From the NCBI GenBank assembly GCA_937125035.1, contig CAKZLG010000080.1, positions 1-37,620 of the forward strand: a stretch of DNA of 37,620 nucleotides. Reading direction: 5' to 3'. Origin of the DNA: an uncultured Maribacter sp. (GTDB lineage: Bacteria > Bacteroidota > Bacteroidia > Flavobacteriales > Flavobacteriaceae). Every line of letters begins with the position of its first letter. Position 1 is the first letter of the stretch. Under the pieces are notes generated by a model. That model was not told where the DNA came from. It saw only the letters and a program-made list of their open reading frames with translations, and searched no databases. Positions 16,984 through 21,148 of this stretch are shown in pieces. The position numbers and the translations under genes are program-made.

Positions 16984-17464
16984 GCTATACCAATAAGTTA
17001 AGCCCGCCTGTAGGCAGATAGGTTAAAGAATACTTGTGGCGGCAAAGATAGGGCAAAATCCTGCGAAAACAGGATTCCGTATGGGGTTTTGACGAGGCCC
17101 CGTCCCCTGTCCAAAATCCATACAGCGTAGGGACCGCATTGGCCTTGTCCATTGAAACTTGCCAAAATGAGAGGTGTAGGCGCTTTCACGGACAAATCAG
17201 GGCCATGGGCAAAAAAAAGAGCCTTGTTCTCACAAGACTCTTCATTGGCCACTCCATTTTTCTTCTTCATAGCATCCTTTTCAGAATGTAAAAAAAGGAC
17301 ATGGCCACCACAACCACTGCCACTAAAAACAGCGGATAATACGGTTTTTATTGCAACATTTTTCTTTTAAGATGTGCCTTCTGCAAAAGGGTTGCGTAAA
17401 GCGGCACATAATTCTTCTTTTCAAAAAAGAAACACTAATTTAGCATGCCTAAAAATAGTAAGAG
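16984..17464. other. Intergenic region between trhO and recA with an orphan terminator
   Basis: About 480 bp. On the minus strand a terminator at 17211-17242 lies upstream of trhO and divergent from recA, so some minus-strand RNA probably starts between 17243 and 17460. That stretch holds a hydrophobic frame ending at TGA 17267-17269 that contains a membrane-helix-like run, but it has no ATG at its beginning; a GTG at 17323 would leave 18 residues. The TGA overlaps an ATG (17270) of a further frame that runs through the terminator. A small hairpin ATCCTG-N6-CAGGAT also occurs near 17060-17080. Confidence 0.4.
17211..17242 (-). terminator. Intrinsic terminator without an assigned gene
   Basis: Stem AGAGCCTTGT (17218-17227) / ACAAGACTCT (17232-17241) with one mismatch and a TCTC loop, followed on the minus strand by seven or eight T. 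It is not downstream of any recognised gene. Confidence 0.8.
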
Positions 17465-18472
17465 ATGAGTTCCGAAAAAGACGCCAAATTAAAAGCCCTG
17501 AAGTTGACCCTAGACAAATTGGATAAAACCTATGGTAAGGGTGCCGTAATGAAAATGGGAGACAGTATTGTGGAAGACGTAGAGGTGATTTCCTCGGGGT
17601 CTTTGGGTCTTGACATTGCCTTGGGGGTAGGGGGCTATCCGCGTGGAAGGGTCATTGAAATCTACGGTCCGGAATCTTCAGGTAAGACCACCTTGACCCT
17701 GCATGCCATTGCAGAAGCCCAAAAGAATGGAGGAATTGCCGCCTTTATTGATGCTGAGCACGCCTTTGACCGTTTTTATGCCCAAAAATTGGGTGTGGAT
17801 ATAGACAATTTGATCATCTCACAACCAGATAATGGCGAACAAGCATTGGAAATTGCGGACAATCTCATTCGTTCTGGCGCCATTGATATCGTTATTGTGG
17901 ATTCTGTAGCGGCGTTGACCCCAAAAAGCGAGATTGAGGGTGAAATGGGGGATTCCAAAATGGGACTCCATGCCAGGCTCATGTCACAGGCACTTCGGAA
18001 GCTTACGGGATCTATAAGCAAAACCCATTGCACCGTTATCTTCATCAACCAATTACGGGAAAAAATCGGGGTGATGTTCGGAAATCCAGAGACCACCACC
18101 GGTGGTAACGCCCTAAAATTTTATGCCTCCGTTAGGTTGGACATCCGCAGGTCTACCCAGATCAAGGATACGGATGGTAATGTGCAGGGCAACAAAACCC
18201 GTGTTAAAGTGGTCAAAAACAAGGTGGCGCCCCCTTTTAGGACTGCCGAGTTTGATATCATGTATGGCGGGGGCATCTCTAAGGTGGGAGAGATCATTGA
18301 CTTGGGCGTAGAGTATGAAATCATCAAAAAAAGCGGTTCATGGTTCAGTTATGGCGATACTAAATTGGGCCAAGGGCGGGATGCCGTGAAATCCCTTCTT
18401 CTGGACAACCCGGAACTGTTTGAGGAATTGGAGGGCAAAATAAGGGAAGCCATTGGTGCCCTGACAACCTAA
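17465..18472 (+). CDS. recA: Recombinase RecA
   Basis: ATP-dependent strand-exchange protein and SOS coprotease. Walker A GPESSGKT is at residues 68-75, the catalytic Glu is in IDAEHAF, and loop/Walker B regions include [49 protein letters not shown] and SVRLDIRR. At 335 aa the acidic C-terminal tail is short, as in other Bacteroidota. It has its own upstream region; an imperfect -7 box TAATTTAG lies at 17436-17443. No SOS box was recognised. Monocistronic as far as seen. Confidence 0.98.
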
Positions 18473-18496: not shown

Positions 18497-18528
18497 TTGC
18501 AGAAACGCAACCTTTGTCCCTAAATTTC
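18497..18528 (+). promoter_or_regulatory. Possible promoter of the lipoprotein-sigma-anti-sigma operon
   Basis: TTG at 18497-18499 followed 21 bases later by TAAATTTC (18521-18528), which matches TAnnTTTG at seven of eight positions. AACCTTTG also occurs just upstream. Either could serve a housekeeping-sigma promoter; an ECF-type GAAAC element lies nearby but I cannot assign it. Confidence 0.3.
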
Positions 18529-18553
18529 ATCTACCTAAAAAAAAGATGGTTTT

Positions 18554-18976
18554 ATGATGAAGAAAATAGCTGTGTTGCTGGTGTTGAGCGCAGTAGTGTG
18601 CTTAAGCTCGTGCACCTTGGAGGATGACGGCCCTAACTTTCACTTTGCCCCTTTGCAAATTACGGCGGCACAACTCCCCGATACTTTTAGGCTCAGCGAA
18701 ACCTACCGCATCAATTTCACCTACCTACGGCCAGACAATTGTACCTTTTACGACTATCCGGATGTAAGGAAGCCCCAAGGGGCCAATATTCGTGAGGTTG
18801 TGGCCATAGGTATTGTACGCACGGATATGGACGCTTGTGAAGACCTCATGGAGGAAAATGAGGCCGCCTTTGATTTTGCCATTATTTATAATGAACCCTA
18901 TACCTTCCGCTTTTACCAAGGCGAGGATAACGCGGGAGAACCCCAGTACCTAGAGGTGACCGTCCCCGTAAATTAA
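18554..18976 (+). CDS. Small lipoprotein of unknown function upstream of ECF sigma factor
   Basis: A 140-aa lipoprotein: signal peptide and lipobox in KKIAVLLVLSAVVCLSSC (Cys20), then an acidic mature start (TLEDDGPNF). The rest alternates beta-like segments and contains two further Cys (RPDNCTFYDYP and MDACEDLME) that could pair in the periplasm. ATG ATG at 18554 leaves a one-residue choice of start. Its stop is 21 bp before the sigma factor start and in the same frame, so it is probably the first gene of a three-gene operon and could be an accessory or stress-reporting component. I do not recognise the family. Confidence 0.75.
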   Translation: MMKKIAVLLVLSAVVCLSSCTLEDDGPNFHFAPLQITAAQLPDTFRLSETYRINFTYLRPDNCTFYDYPDVRKPQGANIREVVAIGIVRTDMDACEDLMEENEAAFDFAIIYNEPYTFRFYQGEDNAGEPQYLEVTVPVN

Positions 18977-18997: not shown

Positions 18998-19564
18998 TTG
19001 GACATTGAGAAACTCATAAAAAACTGCCAGAAAGGCGAACGAAAGGCGCAAGAACAATTATACAGGGCCTATGCGCCCGTGCTCTTTGGCATCTGTCTCA
19101 AATATTCCAAGAACAAAACAGAGGCAGAAGACAATCTGCACGATAGTTTTATGACCATTTATGACAAAATGGGGCAATACAAGCATAAAGGCTCTTTTGA
19201 AGGGTGGATGAAGCGCATTACCGTGAATACGGTACTGCAAAAATACAGAAAGGAAGAGCCCCTAAGCGTGGTACATGACAATACCCAGGGCCAAGTGGAT
19301 CTAGAAGAGGCCCATACCGCAATAAATTTACAGACCCTCTTGGAATATATCCGAGAGCTGCCCAACAAGTACAGGACCACTTTCAGCCTCTATGTACTGG
19401 ATGGCTATTCCCATAAGGAGATAGGCAAATTATTGGGGACCTCTGAGGGTACCTCAAAATCCAACCTTGCACGGGCAAGAATGATATTAAAGGAAAAAAT
19501 AGAATCCCAAATCTCCAAGACCACCATGGGCACATGGTTATTGGTACTGGTGGATTGGCTCTAA
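18998..19564 (+). CDS. ECF-family RNA polymerase sigma factor, TTG start
   Basis: Extracytoplasmic-function sigma factor of 188 aa with region 2 (about 1-75, including KTEAEDNLHDSFMTIYDKMGQY and GSFEGWMKRITVNTVLQKYRK) and region 4 (about 115-170, with LPNKYRTTFSLYVLDGYSHKE and GTSEGTSKSNLARARMILKEK). The only usable start is TTG at 18998: the preceding gene's TAA is in the same frame 21 bases upstream, there is no ATG between, and the first internal Met would destroy region 2. A weak start codon may keep its level low or couple it to the lipoprotein gene. The dual-membrane protein downstream is its likely regulator. Confidence 0.9.
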   Translation: MDIEKLIKNCQKGERKAQEQLYRAYAPVLFGICLKYSKNKTEAEDNLHDSFMTIYDKMGQYKHKGSFEGWMKRITVNTVLQKYRKEEPLSVVHDNTQGQVDLEEAHTAINLQTLLEYIRELPNKYRTTFSLYVLDGYSHKEIGKLLGTSEGTSKSNLARARMILKEKIESQISKTTMGTWLLVLVDWL

Positions 19565-19594
19565 GGCCAGGATGAAAAGAAATAGCTAAGAAAA

Positions 19595-21148
19595 ATGAGT
19601 AAAAAGAATTTAGACGAACTGTTCCAAGAGAAATTCTTGGATTTCAAGGAAATGCCAGATGAAAGGGTATGGCATTCCATTGAAGCGTCGCTCAACAAAA
19701 AGACAAAGAAGCGCATACTGCCCCTTTGGTTGCAAATTGGGGGCGTTGCCGCCGCACTGGTGCTGGGACTGCTGTTGTTCAACCCTTTCAGAACTACGGT
19801 GGTGCCCCAAGGGCAAGTAACGGACAGGGATGCCCCCGCCCTAAAAGAAGGTGTGCAGGACAATGACGTCTCCAATCAAAAGGATCAAGATAAAAACACC
19901 CCAGCGGTAGGTAAAGAAACCCCTAAGACCCCCGGTGAATTCACCCCGGCAGATGCTTCCAATGGCTTGGCCTCCGAGGATAACAACGGCATTAAAGAAG
20001 AAAATAGGGCTTCGGGTGATGGGCAACCCAATCCAACCGGCCGAGGGCAGAAGATGCTTTCCCCAACCCATGGTACAGTGGCCCAAACCAATTCGGTAAA
20101 GGAAGGGAACAAAATAAGTAGCGGTGCTGATGGGAATACTCCGCCGGTGCCTTTTGGTGACCGCGATCTTCCCAACAAAGAAAATGCCATGGCCAATACA
20201 ACGGTAACCGCGAATAATGAAAAAGCCGGCACCAAAGATAGTTTGCACCTCAACAAGGACAAGCACAAGGCAATTTCCAACACGGGCAATAGTACAGCGG
20301 TGGCCCAACAAGAGGTCCAAGAACCGGACACGGAATACAAAGTTGCACCGGGCACAAAATCCATTTTTGAGGCCATAGAGGACCAAGAGGAAGAGGTGGC
20401 CGCGGGCAACCCCTCCAAAAAATGGTCGGCAGGGCCAAGTATCGCACCTGTTTATTTCAATGCTTTAGGGCAAGGTTCACCGGTGCATTCCATCTTTGTC
20501 CCCAATGCTAAATCGGGCGATGTGAACCTCAGTTACGGGGTCACAGTGGCCTACGCCATTAATAAGAAATTCAGTGTCCGTTCTGGGGTACATCGGGTAG
20601 ATTTTGGGTATGATACCAATGATGTGGCCTTTTCATCCTCCTTAGTGGCCTCCACCAACGGCCAGATAGACAATATAGATTACAGACCTACCTCCAAAAA
20701 CCTGGTATTGTCCAGTAGAAGTGCCCGTAACGCCGCACCAGAAGCAAACAGCGCCGCCCTGGACGCTGCTGTGGGGAACCCGGCCAAAGAGGGGGTCATG
20801 TCACAGCAATTTGGTTATCTAGAGGTGCCCGTGGAACTGAATTATGCCTTGTTGGACCGCAAATTTGGCATCAATCTCATAGGTGGGGTCAGTTCCCTGT
20901 TCCTCATGGAAAACAGTGTAGGGCTCTCTTCTGGTGACCTTACCATGGAAATGGGGGAGGCCAACAACGTGAACGCCTTGAATTTTAGCACCAACGTTGG
21001 CTTGGGCATGAACTATAAGTTCAACCAAAACCTTCAGCTCAATGTAGAGCCCATGTTCAAATACCAACTGAACACCTTTTCAGAGACCGATGGCACCTTT
21101 AGGCCTTATACCATTGGGGTCTATAGTGGTCTCAGTTTCCGGTTCTAA
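19595..21148 (+). CDS. Predicted dual membrane-spanning anti-sigma factor with C-terminal beta-barrel
   Basis: A 517-aa protein. Residues 1-40 are a basic cytoplasmic segment (FKEMPDERVWHSIEASL), 41-62 one hydrophobic helix, and 63-275 a low-complexity Asp/Asn/Lys/Gln/Pro/Thr linker. Residues 276-517 read as eight amphipathic strands. Turns after strands 2, 4 and 6 are short (INKK, LLDRK, KFNQN) and connections after 1, 3, 5 and 7 are long; the 3-4 loop is about 60 residues (343-405). This is what an OmpA-size barrel with periplasmic ends would show. The chain ends GLSFRF, a normal outer-membrane terminal Phe. It begins 30 bp after the sigma gene. Dual membrane-spanning anti-sigma factors of this design are known from Bacteroides; a role here is inferred. 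Confidence 0.8.
   Translation: MSKKNLDELFQEKFLDFKEMPDERVWHSIEASLNKKTKKRILPLWLQIGGVAAALVLGLLLFNPFRTTVVPQGQVTDRDAPALKEGVQDNDVSNQKDQDKNTPAVGKETPKTPGEFTPADASNGLASEDNNGIKEENRASGDGQPNPTGRGQKMLSPTHGTVAQTNSVKEGNKISSGADGNTPPVPFGDRDLPNKENAMANTTVTANNEKAGTKDSLHLNKDKHKAISNTGNSTAVAQQEVQEPDTEYKVAPGTKSIFEAIEDQEEEVAAGNPSKKWSAGPSIAPVYFNALGQGSPVHSIFVPNAKSGDVNLSYGVTVAYAINKKFSVRSGVHRVDFGYDTNDVAFSSSLVASTNGQIDNIDYRPTSKNLVLSSRSARNAAPEANSAALDAAVGNPAKEGVMSQQFGYLEVPVELNYALLDRKFGINLIGGVSSLFLMENSVGLSSGDLTMEMGEANNVNALNFSTNVGLGMNYKFNQNLQLNVEPMFKYQLNTFSETDGTFRPYTIGVYSGLSFRF

Follow-up and report, generated by a model that had tools for sequence, protein, structure and literature searches.

A predicted Dma/Reo-type anti-sigma factor of Flavobacteriaceae, its promoter motif and a candidate sigma-linked small RNA

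We identified, in the genome of an uncultured Maribacter species, a gene pair that probably acts as an outer-membrane-sensing switch of the Dma/Reo type; its predicted regulon is very small and has a sigma-driven small RNA among its members. The pair consists of an ECF sigma factor and a 517-residue anti-sigma factor built as one chain, and lies on a 37,620-nucleotide stretch (hereafter, the window) that is one contig of a draft genome of 3.58 Mb in 360 contigs. The architecture of the protein, the pairing of the genes, the promoter motif and the RNA structure were established by comparison. The original prediction gave the right coordinates for both genes; it had missed the lipoprotein gene upstream, the promoter motif and the divergent RNA.

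A class of such proteins spanning Bacteroidota is already in print. In the reports consulted, Dma/Reo systems have been characterized only in gut Bacteroides and Phocaeicola, and the portions read describe mutants with wide-ranging effects and little output beyond NigD (PMC13088901, PMC9308784, PMC13114119). What is new here, as read from sequence, is that the system is near-core across the family, has a promoter motif that can be defined, and comes with a candidate contact pair and with a structured RNA linked to the sigma factor. Among the papers listed by a limited literature search, none dealt with this locus in flavobacteria.

The anti-sigma factor, its relatives and its barrel domain

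The sigma factor (188 residues, TTG start, positions 18998–19564, + strand) matches Pfam Sigma70_r4_2 (1.7e-15) and Sigma70_r2 (6.1e-12) as well as the NCBIfam sigma70-ECF family, and the 517-residue protein follows it on the same strand (19595–21148). The latter had been described as a single chain of cytoplasmic segment, inner-membrane helix, linker and C-terminal barrel, a design that is borne out by Pfam matches, hydropathy and composition. Its N-module, presumed to hold the sigma factor (residues 1–44, 19595–19726, + strand), was thought to be a short basic segment; as a whole it is near neutral (10 K+R, 8 D+E), and the description holds for the end before the helix. Strong hydrophobicity is confined to a single stretch of the protein (19-residue windows with starts at 41–52, maximum 2.22), supporting an inner-membrane helix at about residues 45–63 (19727–19783, + strand). 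The tether, originally put at about 210 low-complexity residues, spans 211 (residues 66–276, 19790–20422, + strand), 15% of them hydrophobic or aromatic, its disorder being judged by composition alone. The predicted outer-membrane barrel domain (residues 277–517, 20423–21145, + strand) ends in F. The junction of tether and barrel carries a conserved stretch, KSIF-(D/E)-x-I-x-x-QEEE (20357–20398), which is helical even in a low-confidence structural model and is possibly a plug, a hinge or a cleavage site.

We compared these modules with those of Bacteroidaceae loci, which served as stand-ins for the named Dma proteins of Bacteroides thetaiotaomicron. The stand-in set comprised 101 genomes of a group recognized by NigD and on that ground taken to be Bacteroidaceae; 67 of them have a match. 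All 20 chosen loci, picked for an N-terminal or near-complete match, encode behind a sigma gene a protein with a hydrophobic helix, a tether and a barrel end, and in the four with a scanned divergent neighbor this neighbor is a NigD protein. The N-module matched the Bacteroidaceae N-modules with a profile probability of 98.5% (E 1.7e-15), compared with 3.1% for a reversed profile and 0.1–8.1% for ten column shuffles, and the barrel matched its counterparts at 98.9%. Since such barrels are common, the barrel match alone is not specific; the N-module match is. With both modules homologous to these stand-in proteins, and a sigma gene adjacent, the earlier proposal of a flavobacterial relative of Dma is sound, and we classify the protein, on sequence grounds, as a Dma/Reo-type anti-sigma factor.

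According to the consulted part of PMC13088901, Dma1/Das1 and Dma2/Das2 of B. thetaiotaomicron likewise combine a sigma-binding N-terminal part, one helix, a disordered tether and a barrel, and adjoin a sigma gene. The points on which the flavobacterial protein is shown to agree with that description include the adjacent ECF sigma gene and leave aside the closed barrel and the ECF21 group. Unlike those systems, it is found beside recA, with a non-NigD lipoprotein and a predicted four-transcript regulon that includes a structured RNA. EcfO-Reo of Bacteroides fragilis and Phocaeicola vulgatus has the same design, a surface-lipoprotein regulon and an autoinduced sigma gene, and the consulted parts of the reports state that envelope toxins or loss of the anti-sigma factor induce NigD surface lipoproteins (PMC9308784, PMC13114119). 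The window contains no Pfam match to the FecR domain, so the protein does not fall among the FecR-type anti-sigma factors, and its nearest scanned neighbors (recA, the lipoprotein, an acyltransferase and a tRNA synthetase) include no separate TonB-dependent receptor. In FecI-FecR-FecA, an outer-membrane event is also signaled to an ECF sigma factor, with receptor and anti-sigma factor as separate proteins, whereas here a single chain would do both.

The anti-sigma gene was found in a single copy in its own genome, and its named relatives, at 47–53% identity, come from three Maribacter MAGs and from an uncultured bacterium of the Flavobacteriaceae. All 36 genus genomes contain a relative, as do 39 of the 60 relatives sampled and, across the family, 318 of 397 genomes (280 of the 330 with at least 90% completeness and at most 5% contamination); 79 genomes were without one, and 15 of the 20 listed among these are 2.2 Mb or less. 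These counts mark the predicted anti-sigma factor as near-core in a large family of environmental bacteria. Immediately upstream, a sigma gene was found in 59 of 60 loci, the 60th ending at a contig end, and the two genes are adjacent and co-oriented in 100 of 100 further family loci, which are among the best matches, with a median gap of 3 bp. Because the fetched loci were mostly best matches, the locus counts lean to clear cases. Across the 100 loci, the protein measures 475–587 residues and ends in F in 99. A lipoprotein gene precedes the sigma gene in 59 of the first 60 loci and 80 of the further 100, and recA is present in 99 of 100 longer loci and in 215 of 258 family loci, many of them with only 1.5 kb of flank. 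A search of IMG/VR yielded 42 stretches matching a pattern, none of which was confirmed as an anti-sigma relative.

Two variations were observed among other loci. In L012, L018 and L024, a 184-residue ORF that is missing in the window directly follows the anti-sigma gene; its DUF3575 match is weak and above the cut-off in L018 only. In L078, L079 and L080, the relatives reach 608–617 residues, and profile matches overlap within the tether, which looks internally expanded.

The C-terminal domain had been predicted to be an eight-stranded outer-membrane barrel, with the loop between strands 3 and 4 as its candidate sensor. It matches Pfam OMP_b-brl_2 narrowly (27.5 bits, cut-off 27, residues 310–484). 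Structure prediction, suggested as a check for a closed eight-stranded barrel, gave no usable AlphaFold model (mean pLDDT 29.6 for the full length and 28.9 for the barrel alone, each from five sequences), and with pLDDT below 30 a closed barrel is not shown. When the variable loop was included in the barrel DCA, it dominated the result and parallel ladders were as strong as antiparallel ones, so the analysis was repeated without the loop. Neighboring strands were then favored, with p 0.009 for 252 sequences of Flavobacteriaceae only and p 0.031 for 272 sequences after adding Bacteroidaceae. A closure signal was absent from these ladders, in which strands 1 and 8 rank last or next to last, and two non-neighboring pairs, 3-8 and 2-8, score on a par with true neighbors. 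Overall, the OMP_b-brl_2 match, the strand coevolution and the Bacteroidaceae homology uphold the barrel, a closed model and a pairing of strands 1 and 8 did not materialize, and we treat the barrel as likely, not shown. Six gap-rich columns were dropped, five in the 3-4 loop at 382–386 and the sixth at 354; a gap-rich 3-4 loop would suit a sensor role but proves nothing.

Two other readings of the chain need to be weighed. The protein could be made whole and constantly cut in its tether, leaving a small anti-sigma factor in the inner membrane that works independently of a free barrel. The long and poorly conserved tethers of the relatives fit such cutting, and the same N-module occurs in short, barrel-less proteins of other Bacteroidia (179–252 residues; L106, L107 and L111); however, nearly every fetched relative is one open frame in which the tether stays long, which constant cutting would not require, and we regard this reading as quite unlikely. 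The fused design also appears to be more than chance, because the pair is adjacent in 100 of 100 loci, the terminal F is kept in 99 of 100, and, of nine PF13568 matches in the genome, the seven others over the cut-off sit in open frames of 199–263 residues. Alternatively, the C-terminal domain might be a periplasmic or peripheral beta domain of a protein that does not span both membranes. The unusable structure prediction, the missing closure signal and the Pfam match just above its cut-off are compatible with this, but hydrophobicity alternates in seven of the eight strands, which together with the OMP_b-brl_2 match favors a membrane barrel, as do the terminal F and the homology to Bacteroidaceae barrels, whose own OMP_b-brl_2 match is at 1.9e-10. 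We therefore find a non-spanning protein very unlikely.

Coupling between the sigma factor and the N-module

The N-module had been proposed to bind the sigma factor, and coevolution of the two proteins supports this. In a discovery set that paired the two proteins in 224 loci, with 221 rows left once gaps had been filtered, the top coupling of the whole matrix joined R161 of the sigma factor (codon at 19478–19480, + strand) to D7 of the anti-sigma factor (codon at 19613–19615, + strand), with z 13.95 compared with 8.5 for the next pair. R161 is located in the region 4.2 helix GTSKSNLARAR. A hold-out of 70 loci from one large genus of the family provided 66 new pairs, besides three duplicates and one locus without a pair: R161 occurred with D7 in 35 and K161 with another residue in 31, with no exception among the 66. 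Nine of these K161 rows belong to a paralogous group in which the alignment of position 7 is uncertain, leaving 22, and the rule does have exceptions in the discovery set. Over all 286 rows, the coupling reached z 18.1, while three shuffled pairings gave at most 3.61.

Phylogeny tempers this coupling, and the tree-aware support is moderate. In the first set, a tree test counted eight coincident changes where 1.25 were expected (0 of 10,000 simulations), ranking the pair second of 11,792. With all rows, seven were counted against 1.3 expected, a number reached in 4 of 20,000 simulations, and the pair ranked 12th among 11,859 pairs joining the two proteins. Testing only supported independent pairs gave the same direction, from too few pairs (median p 0.125). 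Since K161 of the Bacteroidaceae sigma factors stands mostly opposite non-acidic residues, the R161-D7 contact, if real, differs there. We propose R161 and D7 as a candidate contact pair for sigma sequestration.

Promoter motif, predicted regulon and divergent RNA

Upstream of the lipoprotein gene that opens the operon, we found the promoter-like sequence ACGCAACC-n-TT-N12-nATCT (18505–18532, + strand), written as the motif ACGCAACCnTT-N12-nATCT. The form GCAACC-N15-CATC is present exactly in 164 of 201 distinct family upstream regions, compared with 0, 0, 0, 1 and 0 in five shuffles, and all other spacings from 11 to 20 gave five matches in total. Many regions without the exact motif carry another -10 core, such as GTATC (25 listed of the 33 failing a looser spacing). 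Within the window alone, a one-mismatch search found three sites with 3.07 expected, and the case for the motif therefore rests on conservation; one sigma-70 consensus scan, made as a first promoter count, gave nothing above chance there. Across the genus, CGCAACCnTT-N13-ATCT occurs in 35 of 36 genomes (two matches in all for the reversed pattern), and 26 of the 36 have two oppositely oriented copies at a distance of 1.1–1.4 kb; in the loci read, these copies flank recA on both sides. The window follows this pattern: its second copy (17370–17397, − strand) is directed away from recA (17465–18472, + strand; Pfam RecA 3.7e-141), a syntenic neighbor that we do not claim to be regulated.

Searching the source genome for the full pattern with one mismatch returned four sites, two of them in the window, and none in the control; the shorter GCAACC-N15-CATC alone gave four matches in both. 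From the four sites, we predict a regulon of four transcripts. The third site (C167:19002–19029) precedes a one-helix membrane microprotein of 32 residues, resembling a 28-residue peptide that follows the motif in four of the roughly 14 genus genomes where a comparable site occurs. The fourth precedes a lipoprotein gene cut by the contig end, whose product has homologues encoded after the motif in two other genomes (E 2.5e-16 and 8e-12). A motif before a sigma factor's own operon is the usual sign of autoregulation, and the predicted switch seems to activate its own operon along with surface proteins and a small RNA. Inspection by eye, without statistics, revealed no CAACC motif upstream of 20 Bacteroidaceae sigma genes. 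Microproteins of 28–32 residues behind the motif were noted in L343, L349, L360, L361 and the source genome, the one in L343 lying between peroxiredoxin-like and FKBP/cyclophilin-like genes.

The first product of the operon, a 140-residue lipoprotein (18554–18976, + strand) with homologues upstream of the sigma gene in other loci, carries C-T-L-E-D-D after its lipobox, which resembles surface export signals in the consulted part of PMC5080379. Two acidic residues at +3 to +5 recur in 127 of the 171 relatives with a lipobox-like site (211 relatives in all), and the protein is probably surface-exposed. It matches no Pfam family above the cut-off. We considered and rejected an identity with NigD: there was no NigD match, and NigD_N was not found in the source genome. 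Whereas the lipoproteins of EcfO-Reo are NigD proteins, this one aligns to NigD profiles over the N-terminal signal region only (76.8%).

Behind the second motif copy, a 90-residue ORF (16998–17270) was rejected as the target, there being by eye no kept frame over 20 regions, and a structured RNA took its place. The candidate sigma-dependent RNA (17211–17368, − strand) is about 158 nt long, has a fold z of −4.48 and ends in a conserved terminator with compensatory changes (hairpin 17243–17216). Three helices are common to 22 sequences, with 95.1% of cells paired compared with 85.4% in shuffles; 17 of 27 pairs changed on both sides (0 of 500 shuffles), and slid versions reached at most 53%. A conserved purine-rich box, CUAUGAAgAAGAAAA, is located in a large loop closed by helix 2. 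No Rfam family reached its gathering threshold over the whole window, the best sub-threshold match in 17050–17480 scoring 22.1 bits.

A covariance model run over 199 family genomes returned 20 matches of at least 57 bits, followed by a gap down to 45.6 bits. All 20 lie on the anti-sigma contig, beside the position of the anti-sigma gene; weaker matches look mostly like chance, with two weak ones (G239 and G142) at the locus. Three of the 20 genomes belong to the training set, leaving 17 further copies, in all of which the motif starts 24–92 nt before the model match and recA is present. Taken by themselves, these 17 show the covariation again (94.4% paired; 17 pairs; 0 of 500 shuffles), in an alignment that was fitted to the model and leans towards it. 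The exact motif was found in 27 of 50 distinct regions upstream of recA; among the other 23, some show by eye a slightly altered motif and a terminator, and others nothing. The confidently detected RNA is thus limited to about one tenth of the sampled family genomes, and the anti-sigma factor is much wider.

Two alternatives concern these outputs. The RNA could be a leader or attenuator of trhO instead of a free small RNA, as trhO lies downstream of it in the window and in 15 of the 17 further loci. Its conserved terminator with compensatory changes speaks against this, as do the other two loci, which keep the RNA with no detectable trhO in the fetched stretch, and we judge the leader reading rather unlikely. 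The motif copies, in turn, might serve a different sigma factor or regulator; sharing of ECF motifs can occur, and the pairing of motif and sigma factor here is drawn from sequence. Yet one copy precedes this sigma factor's own operon in most of the 201 family loci, and inspection by eye places CAACC-N15/16-C(A/G)TC ahead of related sigma genes in L093, L099 and L107, so that we give another owner of the motif a low probability.

Proposed switch and variants of its putative sigma-holding part

In the switch that we favor, residues 1–44 would bind the region 4.2 helix of the ECF sigma factor through the D7-R161 contact. One helix would anchor the chain in the inner membrane, with the disordered tether crossing the periplasm to an outer-membrane barrel. 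If the barrel or the outer membrane were disturbed, the sigma factor might then be released, by pull, misassembly or cleavage. The freed sigma factor would use ACGCAACCnTT-N12-nATCT to transcribe its own operon of lipoprotein, sigma and anti-sigma factor, along with the RNA divergent from recA, the one-helix microprotein and the second lipoprotein. The lipoprotein would reside at the cell surface, and the RNA may have an action of its own. As the predicted regulon is tiny, its members are likely the effectors, as NigD lipoproteins are for EcfO-Reo.

The envelope sigma factor of enteric bacteria, sigma-E, controlled by RseA, has the small RNAs RybB and MicA in its regulon. The system proposed here shares a regulon containing a small RNA, whereas RseA has no outer-membrane part, and the two are likened by logic, not by sequence. 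We see roughly an even chance that Flavobacteriaceae hold a counterpart of the sigma-E/RybB logic, in which a tethered two-membrane anti-sigma factor governs a sigma factor whose main outputs are a small RNA back-to-back with recA, a microprotein and surface lipoproteins, and that the Dma N-module is a phylum-wide sigma-holding part fused to different sensors (a barrel, a TonB plug plus von Willebrand A domain, or none). If confirmed, the sigma-dependent RNA would give Bacteroidota an envelope-stress RNA like the enteric ones. The Dma/Reo design is now placed in a large environmental family, with a short predicted target list and a defined motif, and R161-D7 offers a putative point contact open to a charge-swap test.

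Several N-modules of other Bacteroidia lie behind a related sigma gene and are fused to domains other than the barrel: a TonB-receptor Plug with VWA and a secretion tail in L092 and L093, Plug with VWA/YfbK_C in L096, and CarboxypepD_reg with VWA/YfbK_C in L097. These are possibly other sensors on the same sigma-holding part. The short barrel-less proteins of L106, L107 and L111 also adjoin a sigma gene, and L109 encodes a similar protein of 331 residues.
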